From assembly GCF_964340395.1 (NCBI RefSeq), contig NC_135563.1:22504809-22568808 (forward strand): a DNA stretch of 64,000 nucleotides, written 5' to 3'. Position 1 is the first letter of the stretch; each line of letters opens with the position of its first letter. Made by a program: the position numbers and the translations under genes. Below the pieces are notes generated by a model. It was not told where the DNA came from. It saw nothing but the letters and a program-made list of their open reading frames with translations, and searched no databases. The DNA comes from Glandiceps talaboti. Lineage: Eukaryota; Hemichordata; Enteropneusta; Spengelidae. Shown in pieces: positions 54,301 to 60,835 of this stretch.

Positions 54301-57300
54301 GAGAAAAAATAATAAAATCGCGAAAATTATAAAGGCTCGCGAGAAATAGTGGATGCGGAAACTTACATCAACTTAAGAAAAAACCAACACATTTATGAAA
54401 AATAAAATAAAAAATATATCTACCCCACCTATTCTTAAATTGAACTTATTGGGAACAACAAGGCCAGGGTTTCAATGTTGGGATCTCGCATTAAGGCAAA
54501 AAAAAAGAAATGGTTCTGGTCATGTCTTTTTTCCAAAAACGGTGCGACGACGCGAATTTTTTTTCCTTTCAATGTTAGTATATATACATATGTATTCCGT
54601 GTTGCACGTAGGCATATAGGAAACTTACTGTTATTAGAACCTGATCGCTTAACAAAGGAAAACTGAAGGAACTGCAAGATACTTTGAAATTGTGGCCTAA
54701 ACGTAAACATATACACTTTTTGTCATTAAACCTTAGCATTTGGGTGTGTGAGACACACACAATTCTTGTTTGAGACACACACAATCCTCGTGCGGAACAC
54801 ACACAATCCTGGTCATAAGACCTTAGCATTTGCTTTTTTGTGCAACAATTTACTCTAAAACAGGACACATCATAAGATGCGCCAGTTCCAGGCGACAAAA
54901 CAAACAAGCCAGTCGAAACCACACCAACTTGTGTCTGCATCAACTCTCATTGACGGAACCCTTGATGTCTTCTGTTTTAGAGTAAATTGTTGCAGAAAAT
55001 CCCCAAATGCTAAGCTCTTCTGACCAGGATTCGGTGTGTTTCGAACACCTCAATTCTGGTCATAAACCTTAGCATTTGGTTGTTTTCTGCAACAATTTAC
55101 TCTAAATCAGCACACATGAAAGGACCGTCAACACGGATTGACAGTTCGGGTAGTCTATATGACGGATGTTGTCGGTGACCAACATCCTGTACAACTCTGA
55201 CTCAGTTCAAGGGCGCCAATCTAAGCCCACTCTCTAAGTTGTTGCGTGTTATATTAGACATACAAGAACACTCGTAACTTCTATATATCATGTCTCTTTT
55301 CCAAGTACAAGTGCTTTACAGAGGCAAACGTCGACAATTCTACACAAATGGCTTCAACTCGTATGATGAACTCGATTACCTGATACGGACAAATATTCCA
55401 TCCCTGGGTACGTGTGAGTACCAAGTACAGTATGAGAACGACGAAGGTATTGCCATAACGCTATCACAGTCATGTTTGATGGACATTGTAGACCTCAAAC
55501 GCTGTGCATTCTCAGTCGTGGATGCCGAATATCGAAGAATAAAGATATCTGTTGTCGAGGGATATTCACCCATGAGTAACCCACCGGGTATCAGTTTGCA
55601 GCAAACACCCACGACTACCAATACTGCACCGGGTCAGAAACCACAAACAGAAGTGGACATGCGTTCTCATTCCCGTAACTCGCGTTCGAATGCAAAGCGA
55701 CTCAGGTTTGACCATGACGAGCCGGACATAAATGAAGAACCCGAGAGGCCAACTTTAGAGAGGGACAAGTTTTCTGGCTTTGACTTTAAAACCCCGTTGC
55801 AAAGTGAAATTAATGAAATTGAAGAGGATGTTTTCAATTTGGAAGAGGAGATGAAAATAGCGGAAAGAAAGCTTCTTGATGTAAACAAACAGTATGCGAC
55901 GGCTACGGAGTTTGGAAGTGGAAACAAATGTAGTAAGTGTCACCTCAGGGAAGGCCATACACGAAGTAATTGTCGGAATGGTCGATGCATTTCGGCTGCA
56001 GTTTGCGGAGATCTTTCCAAACACAGGGATGAAAAAGAAGAAGTGACAGAGCTTGCTAAGAAACGCGATAACTTGAAGAAAGAATTACAGAAGAAACGAT
56101 CTGAACTATTGGACAAAATCAAATTACAAGAGAATCTTCATAGCTCGTTCGAACGTCGTATCGAAGCAGCGCTCATTAACAGCAACAAGGACAGATATCT
56201 TTGCGAAACATCCATTGGACCGCGACCAAGAAAACAGGTCTTAAATTGTGATATTGCGATTCTGAAGAGTCACTATCACGGCAGAGTGCCATCTAATTTG
56301 GATGAAGAATCGTTGAAGTTTGGACGTATCATACACCGCTTTGATGTAGACACTGGACGCACTGTACGAAAGGACACAGCGAGAGAGAGGTTGAAAAAGG
56401 AGGGGATCGTATATCCTTCGGTAGGAGATGATGACATTGGATCTGAAAGTGACACTATTGCCGAAAAGTATCGTGATACTACGGACAATGTAAGTCATCA
56501 AAGTACTAGTACGAGTAAACAACCACCATCACGGCCAACGTGCGTATTCAACAGCCGCGATACACCTCTATTGAATCACGGCCCACAAATGATGCATAAC
56601 CCAGCCCCTTACCAGTATACTCCGCCCTACTCCTATCCAACACCAATGCAGTATCCGAATACATCACAACAGCCTTGTTTACAACCACAGAATGCCTACT
56701 ATAGTAACCAATACGCCAATTTCCCATCATACGATTATGATGCTACAAGACGACCAACTGAACCACCTTCGTTTGGCCAAAATAATGCGCCAAGATACCA
56801 GTACCAATACCAGTGATTGAACGAACGTGGAACATTGAACTGTCAGCCTCATAAGAACTTATACATGTATTTTTTATCACATTACATTTTACAATGCCAT
56901 TTTCAACCATATTTAAGTTTCATCATAGCCCTCGACGGTTTTAGTTGCTTATACTGTGCAGGACATGTTAACTTTGCATTTGTTCCAGTTCACTTACACG
57001 TTTTGCATTACCTCTAGGACACTTCAGCAGTTCACATATTTAGCAGTACGTAGTGACAAAACAATTTCAAACAATTTGATGAAGAGTACGAGTATGACCT
57101 GTCTTGATCATAGTTCAAAATTTCAAAAACGTCACATTCAAACTGTGCTTTAGATTAGTTAACACTAGGCGTAGTTGAATGCCTATATTTCACTAGGATT
57201 GTTACACTCCATTTTTCGAAGTTCTATCGAATTGAATGACATTACATTTTCCAAATCATAACATACAATAATTGTAAGCGAGAACAACAACATGTACTAG

Positions 57301-60300
57301 CCTATGTTCTAGCAGGTGGTAGTAGATACCGGTATATACTAGATTAAAGCATATCACAAATAGAGTTGCATAGTGAGGATCAAAACGATTTGATAATTGT
57401 ATTCATAATCATAGTGTCAATTGATTTCAAAACAGCCACAACAAATCACATGGATTTGTAATTACATGTAGTAATGCTGTTCAAGTTGGTTGCAGTTACT
57501 GTTATAACTTATACAAGTGTAATACAAAGTAAAATAAAGTTTCCTCAAGTTAAACCCAATTGCAATGTGTATGTCAGAAATGAGTTTTGATTATTATTGC
57601 TCCTGTTGTCAAGTAATGGTTGAATTACTAATAAAATAAATTGCCAATTGACCTATTAAAATTCTATTCATAATGCAAAAAAAAAAAATTAGAAGTATAT
57701 TTAAAATACCCAAAACAATTTTGCCTTTATTCATCAAGTGCCAAACTTTAAATTTGAATTTTAGACTAACAGTAGAAAATATAAAATTTGTTCATACATA
57801 CATACATACATACATACATACATACATACATACATACATTCATTCGTCTTAGTTATATGTTGTGTTCATTACACTTTGTAATACTATCAAAATATGTGAA
57901 CACAGCAATAACAAAACAAAAACAACACGGAAACTGGTTAGGTAGTTCTCTTTTTGGAATAGGTGGTGGTCCTGAAAAGGACCGTTTGGTTTGTGCCTTA
58001 TATTAGGCCATATTTAGATACCCAAGGTGTCGGAAATAGCCATGAGTATCACCGGCTGTAATTTCAGACACTGCATCGTGGATCGCAACGTGTATGTTAC
58101 GATGGATGAGGTTTTTGTAGTATGGTTGCGGCAAAATCTTTTTTATTTTACTGAAACAGTTTTCAGCGGGGTTCATCTCAGGTGAATACTTGGGTGTAAA
58201 AATATAGTCGATATCTTGAGCAGCCAGCCATCGTGCTAAAGTCTTTGCTTCTTGGCTGTGATGGATAGGAGCATTGTCTATCACCAGTATATCACCGGGC
58301 CCCAGTGCCGACAATCCTACGTGTGTTACGGTATCAACGCACTCCCCGATGAAATCCAAAAAAGTGGCTGAATTTGATGCACCATCTAGTGTAGAAACAT
58401 GCATGACACCGTTAAGACCCATCAATAAATTTAGAGTAACATTGGGTGATTGGTGGTATCTGACGACTTCTACACATTTCTCACCAATAAGAGAATGTCC
58501 GCGACTACGATAGGCAATGTCTCTTACTTTGAACCCAGACTCATCCATGAATTTCAAGCGATGAGGGTCACACTGATGGAGAAGATCTATGAAATCTTGT
58601 GTATATATCATATTCTCATTGGTAAACCTTTCCATCGCCATACGATTTATCTTTTTATAGGTCCATTTACCACCAGTCAGTCGATCACGCACGGTACGAT
58701 TTATCGTTGAAGCACTGACGCGAACTAGGGAATGCTGTTCGAAACGGGCCTTCACCTCTGCTGTTGTGGCCGAGGGTTGTTCTGATTTGATGGCTTCAAT
58801 ATACTCCACGTCGACATCCAACAGTTTTCTCGTACGTCCTACACGTTCTGTCTCAGGAGTGACTGTCCCGTACTGACACCACTTCAACCATATGTTCTTT
58901 ACTGTAGTGTGGTGTAAACGATATTTTTTTGCAACTTGTATAAAAACTCCGCGTGGTGATATGGCCATCGCACGAAGTCCGCCGCGTTCTTCTATTTCTT
59001 GCACCACCAAAGACCTCAAATCTTTTCCAGTCGCTTTACCCACATCATATCGTCTTCCATGTGCACTAATCTTGCTCATTTTCTGTCTCGTTGACAACTC
59101 GGCACAGGTACGGTGTATACAAGGAATAAAGACAAACGTGCAACATGAAAGTATGGGGTATAGCGGGTTTAAATTAGGCGCGAGAAATATCCGGGATGGT
59201 CACCGAAAACACTGTCGCGTAGACCGTCTACCGACTGCTCGAGCCCTCTCTTCCACGTTGAAAGCGGCATCTTTTGATGGTCATAAATGCTTAGCATTTT
59301 GAGACTTAGTGTCAACAATTTACTCTGTTCGACAGACCAGAAGTTTGTGTGTCTCAGACGCCACACATTGTGTAAAGCAGGATGCTTTGAAGAAGTCGCC
59401 TCCGACTAACGCATCTTTTGATGTGTTCTGTTTTAGAGTAAATTGTTGCATAAAACGTCAAATGCTAAGGTCTTATGACCAGGATTCAGTGTGTCTCAAA
59501 CAAGGATTGTGTGTGTCTCAAACAAGAATTGTGTGTGTCTCAAACACCCAAATGCTAAGGTTTTATGACAAAGCAGAAATTACAGCGGTTAGTTAGCAAA
59601 TCAAATTGGGCGGCAAAAGTAATATGCGGTGGTCGAACATTCTTGCAGCGGCTTATAGATTTAATGAACACTTTACAACATCAATCACATCATGTGCGGA
59701 TAAATCAACAAGCGGCAGTGGATATACAATGGTGGGTAAACCTGTGCAAAGTCTTTAATGAAACATCCTTTTTCATCGAAAGTGAACCGTTACCCAAACA
59801 GGAATTTGTCACCGACGTGGGTGACTGGTTTCATACTAATTGGCAAGTGGACTTTCCTGACAATTCTCAAATGCACATTAATAACAAAGAACTTTTCACT
59901 CTTTTACTCGCATATAGACGGCAAATCCTTCCGTAAGGGCAAGTGTATATAGCAGCAACAATCTAGGACTTTGCATGCCCTTACGGAAGGCATTCAATTT
60001 ATGTCTGGTCGAATGTGCTGTAGGAATAGGTTCACAAATAGCAGAGCCTACTCTTCTAGTTTCTGTTGCAAACATGGGTTATGTCGTGAACGTTACAATG
60101 AATTTTGATCTATATGACTCAACTACTGCATTATGATTCTATCGAAAACCAGTGTTCACATTGTGACGATGATTGGCAGTTTATTTCTATTACATTCATC
60201 AATCAACGTAAACAATTGTTCCCCAAACGCGCAGTTCAAATATGGATCAGGAAAGTGGCAATAGTCAGCGGAGGATTTCAATAATCCAATTATGTTTTCA

Positions 60301-60820
60301 CTTTAGTTAGTAAACGTAGAAATCCAAACTTGTAACCTTCTGGATGAAATTTGAAATGTCTATATCATTAGTCAAACATACATATAGATATATATGCCAA
60401 CTGGGGAGTTTGCTCTCATACTTGATCTGATGTATACCAGTGAGGGCTTATGAAACTGTGAAATCCTTGAGAATATACAAGGCTAAGAAATGCGGTGCAA
60501 TACTAGAGATGTTTAAGAGAATAGTAGCTGGAAATGGATTTTCAGTAAAAAAAAAGAAGTGATCATTAACATTATCTTACAACGCCGTCTTTCATAATTG
60601 GTCTCCAAACCATCTTCATGTCATAGTCGTCCAAAACTCCCGTACTGTTGTTGACGTGTTCAATAGCTCGCTCAGCATATTTCAAAAGGCCTCCATAAAA
60701 ACCATCGTAGTCGTGTGGAAATAGCCCACCGATGTACAGAGGTGTCTTTCCATCTGCAATCTTGCTAACGTTACATAGAATGAAGAAAACAGTCAAAAAT
60801 GGCACCGACGAAAGCTTCAT
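40445..60820 (-). CDS. GABA-B receptor-like class C GPCR, copy 2
   Basis: Seventeen minus-strand exons in coding order: 60581-60820, 51058-51195, 50312-50476, 49068-49172, 48461-48526, 47506-47694, 46850-47092, 46392-46455, 45918-46004, 44795-44945, 44407-44539, 43337-43453, 42783-42905, 42333-42510, 41897-42060, 41116-41250, 40445-40543. They give 798 codons plus TAA. Exon number, order, phases and most lengths equal copy 1; exons 1, 3, 7, 9, 16 and 17 differ only by whole codons. Features are a signal peptide (MKLSSVPFLTVFFILC), Venus-flytrap domain, seven membrane segments (TM5 block LAWKTRSVEVSELNDS) and a coiled-coil tail. An upstream ATG at 60835 is in frame; the MKL start is conserved between copies. 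This is a recent-to-moderate tandem duplicate, head to tail with copy 1. Intron 1 is over 9 kb and holds nested transposons. Coupling and ligand are inferred only from family. Confidence 0.88.
41549..41763. repeat. (ACTC)n then (CCAA)n microsatellite
   Basis: About 46 ACTC units followed by about six CCAA units, in intron 15 of receptor copy 2. Confidence 0.95.
43235..43321. repeat. (CA)n microsatellite
   Basis: About 42 CA units, starting 15 bases past the exon 12 donor of receptor copy 2. Copy 1 has (CAGA)n at the same place. Confidence 0.95.
47311..47439. repeat. (CTGT)n microsatellite in receptor copy 2 intron 6
   Basis: About 32 units with one CTGC variant, 67 bases past the exon 6 donor. 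Position and motif match copy 1. Confidence 0.9.
48626..48700. mobile_element. Partial copy of the TTAA MITE (one arm)
   Basis: TTAA followed by AGGGGCCATATGGATGACAA…TTTGGGATTTATTTTGGATTTTT, clearly related to the end at 11,670. The matching opposite arm is not found, so this copy is truncated or diverged. Confidence 0.6.
51258..51300. repeat. (TA)n repeat with GT flank
   Basis: TA units preceded by a GT-rich stretch (51,222-51,257), in intron 1 of receptor copy 2. Confidence 0.9.
51408..51665 (-). pseudogene. LINE reverse transcriptase C-terminal fragment
   Basis: Minus-strand frame of 85 codons ending YRSWNHLPDDFVHKTTPDAFRNAI, the W-N-x-L-P…F-x-x-x-L signature at the C-terminus of many LINE ORF2 proteins. 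It lies in intron 1 of receptor copy 2. The upstream part is not recognisable. Confidence 0.6.
51700..54650. other. Large part of receptor copy 2 intron 1 without recognised features
   Basis: About 3 kb of AT-rich intron. It holds a C-rich patch (52,985-53,035), a short GT tract (53,310-53,350) and the unassigned minus-strand frame 53,881-54,147 (88 codons, no domain seen). Nothing in it supports a gene. Confidence 0.45.
54662..54716 (+). pseudogene. DIRS-like retroelement RT fragment, left of transposon insertion
   Basis: Reading from about 54665, the frame gives LKELQDTLKLWPKRKHIH, the segment preceding the conserved LQ-L-GKLNWAA block of tyrosine-recombinase (DIRS/Ngaro-type) retroelements. 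It is cut by the transposon and continues at about 59573 on the right. Confidence 0.55.
54717..54890. repeat. Left terminal inverted repeat of two-ORF transposon
   Basis: Inverted match to about 59400-59573. It contains two or three tandem copies of a GAGACACACACAATTCTTGTTT-like motif, then ACCTTAGCATTTG and CAACAATTTACTCTAAAACAG. Sub-terminal copies of these modules recur in both orientations at 54961-55115. Confidence 0.75.
55290..56816 (+). CDS. Transposon accessory protein: PB1-like, zinc knuckle, coiled coil, Y/Q-rich tail
   Basis: A single uninterrupted 508-codon ORF. Residues 1-90 look like a PB1/ubiquitin-like fold: basic residues early (RGKRRQF) and YENDEGIAITLS-QSCLMDI, resembling the acidic OPCA motif of PB1 domains. 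Residues 125-160 are basic/acidic and disordered, with a possible nuclear signal (NAKRLRF). Residues 170-200 and 248-290 are coiled coil. Between them is a Cys/His cluster: C214, C217, H223, C228 (C-X2-C-X5-H-X4-C), then C233, C239 and H245. This resembles gag-type knuckles but with one extra spacer residue. Residues 430-508 are rich in Tyr, Gln, Pro and Asn, a prion-like low-complexity tail. It probably binds nucleic acid and self-associates (inference). It lies within the transposon's inverted repeats and faces the transposase gene. I do not recognise a named family. Confidence 0.75.
   Translation: MSLFQVQVLYRGKRRQFYTNGFNSYDELDYLIRTNIPSLGTCEYQVQYENDEGIAITLSQSCLMDIVDLKRCAFSVVDAEYRRIKISVVEGYSPMSNPPGISLQQTPTTTNTAPGQKPQTEVDMRSHSRNSRSNAKRLRFDHDEPDINEEPERPTLERDKFSGFDFKTPLQSEINEIEEDVFNLEEEMKIAERKLLDVNKQYATATEFGSGNKCSKCHLREGHTRSNCRNGRCISAAVCGDLSKHRDEKEEVTELAKKRDNLKKELQKKRSELLDKIKLQENLHSSFERRIEAALINSNKDRYLCETSIGPRPRKQVLNCDIAILKSHYHGRVPSNLDEESLKFGRIIHRFDVDTGRTVRKDTARERLKKEGIVYPSVGDDDIGSESDTIAEKYRDTTDNVSHQSTSTSKQPPSRPTCVFNSRDTPLLNHGPQMMHNPAPYQYTPPYSYPTPMQYPNTSQQPCLQPQNAYYSNQYANFPSYDYDATRRPTEPPSFGQNNAPRYQYQYQ
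57533..57538 (+). terminator. Possible polyadenylation signal for the transposon accessory gene
   Basis: AATAAA about 720 bases after the accessory ORF, within the AT-rich spacer separating the two convergent ORFs. Confidence 0.35.
57794..57839. repeat. (CATA)n microsatellite
   Basis: About 11 units inside the two-ORF transposon, between its convergent genes. Confidence 0.9.
58003..59097 (-). CDS. DDE transposase, IS630/Tc1/mariner type (DD37E)
   Basis: Intact 364-aa ORF. Residues ~30-145 contain two helix-turn-helix segments (VAKKYRLHHTTVKNIWLKW, then RVSASTINRTVRDRL) joined by a basic linker (ERVGRTRK), the usual bipartite DNA-binding region. The catalytic core has D185 in LKFMDESGF, D274 in ILVIDNAPIHHS and E312 in YSPEMNPAENCFSKIK. 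The spacing of 37 residues between D274 and E312 makes it DD37E. The D-E-S-G and S-P-x-x-N-P-x-E motifs are those of the DDE_3 family, which cuts and pastes DNA through the terminal repeats. Completeness suggests it could still be active. It lies about 300-470 bp from the right terminal repeat, transcribed toward the accessory gene. Confidence 0.9.
   Translation of the reverse strand: MSTRQKMSKISAHGRRYDVGKATGKDLRSLVVQEIEERGGLRAMAISPRGVFIQVAKKYRLHHTTVKNIWLKWCQYGTVTPETERVGRTRKLLDVDVEYIEAIKSEQPSATTAEVKARFEQHSLVRVSASTINRTVRDRLTGGKWTYKKINRMAMERFTNENMIYTQDFIDLLHQCDPHRLKFMDESGFKVRDIAYRSRGHSLIGEKCVEVVRYHQSPNVTLNLLMGLNGVMHVSTLDGASNSATFLDFIGECVDTVTHVGLSALGPGDILVIDNAPIHHSQEAKTLARWLAAQDIDYIFTPKYSPEMNPAENCFSKIKKILPQPYYKNLIHRNIHVAIHDAVSEITAGDTHGYFRHLGYLNMA
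59400..59573. repeat. Right terminal inverted repeat of two-ORF transposon
   Basis: Reverse complement of the left end, with the same order of modules: GTTTTAGAGTAAATTGTTGC, CAAATGCTAAGGTC, three GTGTGTCTCAAAC repeats, then the terminal AAATGCTAAGGTTTTATGAC. A further partial copy of the module lies inside at about 59279-59330. Confidence 0.75.
59565..59936 (+). pseudogene. DIRS-like retroelement RT/RNase H fragment, right of insertion
   Basis: Open frame of ~120 residues with KLQRLVSKSNWAAKVICGGRTFLQRLIDLM, matching the conserved GKLNWAA-VV-GGRTFLRRLIDL block between the reverse transcriptase and RNase H domains of DIRS-type elements. It continues with TDVGDWFHTNW and NNKELFTLLLAYR, the start of RNase H (D near the start, then E). 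It ends at a stop in CCGTAAGG. The first residues lie in the transposon end, so the true element sequence starts near 59573. No recombinase domain is visible, so this is a dead fragment. Confidence 0.7.
59927..59990. repeat. Perfect 15-bp inverted repeat (hairpin)
   Basis: CCTTCCGTAAGGGCA at 59927-59941 and its exact complement TGCCCTTACGGAAGG at 59976-59990, with a 34-base loop. It coincides with the end of the RNase H-like frame. Confidence 0.7.
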
Positions 60821-60835
60821 TTTCCTAGGACACAT

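Follow-up and report, generated by a model that had tools for sequence, protein, structure and literature searches.

The window analyzed here is a 64,000-nucleotide stretch of the genome of the hemichordate Glandiceps talaboti (contig NC_135563.1, positions 22,504,809 to 22,568,808, forward strand). Positions 54714-59572 of this window hold an element of ~4.9 kb that is almost certainly a two-gene, IS630-related transposon. It is composed of two convergent genes between terminal inverted repeats (TIRs). One gene encodes a DD37E transposase, and the other, ORF1, encodes an accessory protein of 508 amino acids (aa). Taken as a whole, the element probably represents an old lineage of autonomous two-gene transposons, related to IS630/Tc1/mariner and moving by cut-and-paste, with a multimerising, nucleic-acid-binding ORF1 protein as cofactor.

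Each TIR lies upstream of one gene, and both genes converge toward the center of the element. The inverted arms (54719-54896 and 59395-59572) are 178 nt long and 89% identical, with an inverted repeat score of 118 versus a maximum of 12 in 60 shuffles. The left TIR (54714-54896, + strand) contains two copies of GTCATWARACCTTAGCATTTG 90 bp apart, with 22-bp tandem repeats in between. An imperfect palindrome inside the left end (54950-55131) carries further copies of the terminal motifs. The right TIR (59395-59572, - strand) has lost its outermost bases. ORF1 is located at 55290-56816 (+) and the transposase at 58003-59079 (-), with predicted convergent poly(A) signals (AATAAA matches) between them at 57533, 57630, and 57635 (+) and at 57731 (-). 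The longest stop-free run is 512 codons; a chance open frame was rejected, as 300 dinucleotide shuffles reached at most 181. The original prediction, made from the sequence of the window, had described inverted ends enclosing an intact transposase and a 508-codon frame on the opposite strand, and both frames are indeed open.

The transposase frame is open at 58003-59097 (-) from a TTG, and its first ATG, at 59079, gives a protein of 358 aa. Counted from this ATG, the catalytic triad is D179, D268, and E306, with a D-E spacing of 37. The triad and the DD37E spacing had been recognized before; only the numbering (D185, D274, E312) changes. The proposed profile search returned 121.6 bits for the IS630 family model NF033545 (cut-off 100) and 81.8 bits for DDE_3 (cut-off 28.6). 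All three residues are invariant against four bacterial IS630 transposases (25-27% identity). Six elements share the D-E spacing of 37, and L083 has 38. Sleeping Beauty (5cr4) is the sole clear sequence match in the PDB, at E 8e-6 over residues 190-317, with the catalytic D and E aligned. By NF033545, DDE_3, and the D-D-E spacing, the transposase is a member of the IS630-Tc1-mariner (ITm) group. The presence of TIRs around the genes and a TA target duplication (seen in short derivatives and in copies L067 and L068) agree with this membership.

In a tree, eight transposases of the genome are separated from the four bacterial ones with full support. These four are the sole outgroups and no other eukaryotic families are included, and the tree does not show that the two-gene elements make up a single clade relative to such families. 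C4_0.60 sits on a long branch. The transposase relatives L003 and L006 were left out of alignment A1. Transposase relatives were not found in IMG/VR viral contigs (searched with a single protein and with an alignment), GTDB species genomes, or phages. ORF1 relatives were likewise not found in these collections or in plasmids.

The evidence for a second gene that belongs to the element comes from the source genome (590 Mb, 47 contigs), in which 127 matches for ORF1 and 107 for the transposase were compared by position. Wherever a transposase match reaches 1040 nt or more (16 cases, 38-100% identity), an ORF1 relative lies within 6 kb of it, which bears out the two-gene structure originally proposed. 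Fifteen of these pairings were found by direct ORF1 search, and the sixteenth (L084) by a profile built from six ORF1s (E 8e-15). The ORF1 relatives elsewhere in the genome share 27-41% identity. Four transposase matches of 927-930 nt at 29-30% identity are without an ORF1 match, yet all four have a convergent second gene. A second gene is therefore found beside 20 of 20 long transposase matches, in convergent orientation in 17 and divergent in 3.

One locus of the 29-30% group, L083, was fetched. Its neighboring convergent frame reads CRTCHHRGHK...C...YCG...H. Beyond this Cys/His piece come stops resembling an intron, then a frame of 263 aa and a tail rich in P. A search with the 263-aa piece found it beside all four transposases of the group. 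The second gene of this group is tentatively considered akin to ORF1, judging from its residues. At this locus (G000:C4:594500-600500), the second gene seems to be split by an intron that separates the Cys/His piece from the remainder, while the other ORF1s are intronless.

The pairing belongs to this transposase clade, because DDE_3 matches outside it (such as C17:14261501 and C15:24116546, beyond the listed transposase matches) are without ORF1. Single-copy host homologues of ORF1, together with copies of the ends that lack the frame, had been named as evidence against the original prediction. Of the 39 ORF1 matches checked (out of 127), none is both intact and without a transposase; those without a listed transposase are fragments or contain stops or frame breaks. 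Pairwise identities of the ORF1 core and the transposase are correlated across six elements (Mantel r 0.84, a value reached in 4 of 720 permutations of the labels). The association extends over deeply diverged families, and the two genes diverge in step. This joint occurrence in many distantly related elements suggests that the second gene is a working component rather than a passenger. The suggestion of an acquired partner is thus upheld for the partner but not for a new acquisition by this element, since ORF1 accompanies the transposase in distantly related families.

Five divergent relatives were fetched whole. In L074, L075, L076, L077, and L078, both frames are open between inverted repeats of 117, 98, 146, 103, and 203 bp, respectively, and the elements are 4.2-6.0 kb long. 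Inverted repeats also enclose both genes in L084. The TIRs differ among the ORF1-transposase lineages. TA is clear at both ends of L078 and L084, and L077 is compatible with it. In L074, TA is present at the left end alone; the right TA is seen in its family member L046, and L081 and L082 also support TA for this family.

Copies of the window family were sought with the first 301 bases of the left end, as the original prediction had advised. There were 486 first-look candidates; 40 of them were scored, each matching over all 301 bases at 93-100%, and 30 were cut out (L007-L036). The 30 loci are made up of the window copy, two other full-size copies, and 27 further copies. Both exact ends lie within the extracted piece in 21 of these 27, at 1480-1791 bp, with target flanks of TA/TA in 20 and GA/TA in 1; the remaining six are not assigned, and the derivative counts rest on the 21. 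The short copies retain pieces of ORF1 relatives. Given their exact ends, TA flanks, and leftover ORF1 pieces, they are internal deletion derivatives mobilised in trans. Copies of the ends without the full frame, which had been named as counting against the prediction if ORF1 also had single-copy host homologues, do exist, but the 21 resolved ones are such deletion derivatives of 1.48-1.79 kb.

A full-size sister copy, L067, is located 2.3 Mb away on the same contig. It is 4885 bp long, with both ends intact and a TA on each side. It differs from the window copy by 23 substitutions, by small indels, and by 24 bp within a CATA repeat. Nineteen of the 23 substitutions are concentrated in an 83-bp patch (55000-55082) inside the palindrome, which leaves 4 in ~4.7 kb. 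Both copies encode the same two proteins: ORF1 carries a single synonymous change, and the transposase gene carries none. With only these 4 substitutions outside the patch, the family moved very recently. The substitution cluster itself suggests conversion or a flip between the palindrome arms. The third full-size copy, L068, is TA-flanked and has a broken ORF1. At G000:C22:16946500-16960000 (L068, L071, L072), two identically oriented family copies with equal-scoring transposases are separated by ~6 kb; one has the broken ORF1 and the other only part of ORF1.

A different arrangement is observed on contig C20 of G000 at ~2.7-8.9 Mb and at C21:70178 (L055-L064). These are approximately ten nearly identical copies of a single decayed two-gene element; they contain stops, and almost all lie on the same contig. 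Most of their ORF1 matches have the same one TGA and one TAG, with transposase remnants nearby. They look like segment amplification, not transposition.

The other genomic copies define the true ends of the element. The left end is CACTTTTTGTCA, which starts at 54714 after the left TA (54712-54713), three bases outside the first estimate of 54717. The intact right end of L067 and L068 is ATGACAAAAAGTG followed by TA. The window instead has ATGACAAAGCAG, so that its outermost right-end bases and the right TA are gone. The element reaches 59572 rather than the 59573 first given. Judged from the window alone, the target duplication would have had zero length; this reading was rejected on the basis of the other copies. 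The right tip was deleted after insertion, and the window element is a damaged copy of an autonomous lineage. It is probably immobile because its right terminus is truncated. Recent activity, which had been suggested for the element, therefore applies to the family and probably not to this copy.

The flanks of the insertion read as one interrupted gene, with ...LKLWPKRKHI on the left and TKQKLQRLVSKSNWAAKV... on the right. The insertion sits within a remnant similar to reverse transcriptase and RNaseH (54640-54711 and 59565-59936), which we take to be of DIRS type. A Pfam search of the right part of this remnant gave no match, and an empty insertion site was not found. If the empty site read CATATA-ACAAAGCAG, the right-end loss would be a 12-bp deletion between two ACAAA repeats.

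ORF1 contains a Cys/His signature at residues 214-248 (55929-56033, + strand). C214, C217, H218, H223, C228, C233, S235, A236, C239, H245, and E248 are invariant in all six aligned ORF1s, a pattern that would suit zinc binding. The order CxxCH...C differs from the CCHC knuckle (C-x2-C-x4-H-x4-C), as here the spacing is C217-x5-H223. Two predicted long helices (residues 169-209 and 243-300, within 55794-56189, +) flank the signature. They reach a predicted local distance difference test (pLDDT) score of ~90 in an AlphaFold2 model of full ORF1 made without an alignment; the mean of this model is 47, and it is uninformative beyond the two helices. The tail of the protein is a low-complexity region rich in P, Y, and Q.

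The head of ORF1 (residues 5-59; 55302-55466, +) is PB1-like. In the relatives L074 (32.6 bits) and L075 (32.0 bits), the PB1 domain (PF00564) is over the Pfam cut-off of 23.6. L078 has a SAM domain at the same place (SAM_2, 26.7 bits, cut-off 20.5). For residues 1-100 of the window protein, AlphaFold2 predicts a strand-strand-helix-strand-strand-helix order at low confidence (pLDDT 50.5). Foldseek ranks PB1 chains 1, 2, 4, and 5 for this part, at insignificant E values of 0.34-1.1, the best of them at 0.34-0.55, and nothing was found at E <= 0.001. Pfam matches of ORF1 to TSGP1, HOATZ-like, and kleA_kleC were set aside, being under their cut-offs. Neither Pfam nor the PDB yielded Gag, ORF1p, or any other known family over the whole of ORF1, and a retroelement origin was rejected on this account. 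The description of the partner as gag- or ORF1p-like holds for architecture and fails for homology.

How the element might work can be outlined from these parts. Each TIR would serve as the promoter of its own gene, with the predicted poly(A) signals lying in the middle of the element. The transposase would bind the repeated terminal motif and carry out cutting and joining. The ORF1 protein may multimerise via its PB1 head (SAM in one branch) and its coiled coils, while the Cys/His module would bind nucleic acid. Such a protein could organize, help assemble, or deliver the complex of transposase and ends. A role of ORF1 as a cofactor of transposition is, by itself, slightly favored.

Several observations weigh against this interpretation. 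The head of the window ORF1 matches PB1 below the cut-off (E 0.011, 16.1 bits). The same domain reaches 12.4 bits in L076, under the cut-off, and gave no match in L077; neither yielded a convincing head domain. The kinship of the second gene of the 29-30% group to ORF1 comes from the Cys/His motif of one locus, L083. The ORF1 profile matches its second gene at E 0.0027 with strong bias, and a repeat search gave nothing below 1e-3. The 20 pairs are not independent and represent approximately nine lineages. Of the 107 transposase matches, 34 were tabulated, fragments included. An ORF1 match lies within 6 kb of 21 of them; among the 13 without one are fragments, the four at 29-30%, and L084. Among DDE_3 matches in the genome, 22 of 54 have an ORF1 match, including 15 of the best 16. 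The TA duplication is not resolved in L075 and L076. The ratio of nonsynonymous to synonymous substitution rates between close copies is mildly below 1 or uninformative.

The pairing of the two genes also bears on what ORF1 may be if it is not a cofactor. A chance composite, in which a host gene was captured by a one-gene transposon in the manner of Pack-type elements, would agree with the rule that Tc1/mariner members have a single gene (PMC10379824, in part). ORF1 relatives stand beside the transposase in approximately nine lineages with different TIRs, however, and no intact stand-alone host gene is present among the 39 ORF1 matches checked. Capture of a host gene is contradicted by this pairing, was rejected, and is considered highly improbable. 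A function outside transposition proper is rather unlikely but carries far more weight than capture. ORF1 would then shield the element, e.g., by sequestering silencing RNA or chromatin factors of the host or by counteracting them, and would be kept as its carriers survive longer. The zinc signature, the polymerising-type heads, and the low-complexity P/Y/Q-rich tail suit a condensate former that binds RNA or chromatin. The Cys/His part also weakly resembles CDCA7, a protein linked to DNA methylation; at E 0.021, this match is not significant by the usual standard and is a hint only. The tight pairing and the stepwise divergence suit a transposase partner at least equally well.

An autonomous two-gene lineage could also be one that is already cataloged. 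The element may be a member of the DD37E/L31 group (Mariner-31_CGi-like) or of another Repbase group with a described two-gene structure, which is a substantial possibility, though not the expected one. L31 is a small DD37E family outside Tc1, mariner, and pogo with few known sequences (PMC7325037, in part), and the available part of that source does not mention a second gene in L31. Open-literature searches, which had the primary L31 paper and Repbase outside their scope and drew on parts of sources, surfaced no published description of such a second gene; this is weak evidence. The group is not claimed to be undescribed.

Beyond the element, a frame with a signal-peptide-like start is located at 60572-60835 (-) of the window. 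This is probably a host exon, and it is presumably similar to GABA-B-type receptor ectodomains.

Tc1/mariner-type elements are textbook one-protein transposons. It is nearly an even bet that the two-gene elements constitute a separate, old branch among the IS630-related transposons of animals, at the family or superfamily level. This branch would have an obligate, polymer-forming, zinc-type partner with an exchangeable PB1 or SAM head and a constant Cys/His core and transposase. If true, such a partner would parallel, among DNA transposons, the modular ORF1 proteins known from retroelements. A second gene kept through such deep divergence would provide a natural test of what the partner adds, which could be pairing of the ends, delivery to the nucleus, choice of target, or protection from silencing. 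PB1 and SAM are both head-to-tail polymerising domains. Their exchange at the same place predicts that polymerisation itself matters, not the particular domain. The branch would also name a zinc-motif protein family that perhaps stands as unexplained host genes in animal gene sets.

Among known systems, the bacterial IS630 elements (NF033545) share a profile match over the cut-off, aligned DDE residues, and the TA target. The four aligned bacterial transposases are plasmid-borne, and their D-E spacing is three residues shorter than that of the window transposase. As far as annotated, these are one-gene elements, versus two genes here. Sleeping Beauty, of the Tc1 family, has one gene and a DD34E triad, unlike the two genes and DD37E triad of the window element. 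Its ends have an inverted repeat/direct repeat (IR/DR) layout, which the repeated sites in the ends of the window family resemble. This layout was not found in the five divergent two-gene relatives examined (L074-L078).

Tc1/mariner elements are, as a rule, 1-3 kb long with a single intronless ORF (PMC10379824, in part). The window element, with two genes in 4.9 kb, and its relatives of 4.2-6.0 kb depart from this rule; the rule has exceptions, and the departure only lowers the claim to Tc1/mariner in the narrow sense. The DD37E groups MS/Mosquito, TRT, L18, and L31, compared by description only, share the DD37E triad and TA duplication with the window element. MS elements are found in several invertebrate phyla and have one ORF of ~340 aa in ~1.3 kb (PMC10379824, in part), versus two genes in 4.9 kb here. 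The pogo elements have "one or two ORFs encoding transposases" (PMC7386202, in part). In Ectocarpus, a Tc1/mariner transposase has gained a domain, and accessory genes are carried by other superfamilies (PMC12477816, in part).

The ciliate elements TBE and Tec are related to IS630/Tc1/mariner and have three ORFs and a DD34E triad; in TBE, these encode a transposase, a small ORF product, and a zinc-finger protein (PMC7325037, in part). Compared by description, Tec and TBE are likewise multigene members of this relationship but differ in their ciliate hosts, and the window element, with DD37E and two genes, lacks their combination of DD34E and three ORFs. MuDR and Harbinger also have two genes, but they differ from the window element in transposase superfamily and target duplication, and their partner proteins are unrelated. 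MuDR has converging genes and TIRs of ~200 bp that act as promoters, and it encodes a transposase and a partner, mudrB. Harbinger encodes a transposase and a Myb-like partner protein. By analogy, ORF1 may be a functional counterpart, not a homologue, of mudrB or of the Harbinger Myb-like protein.

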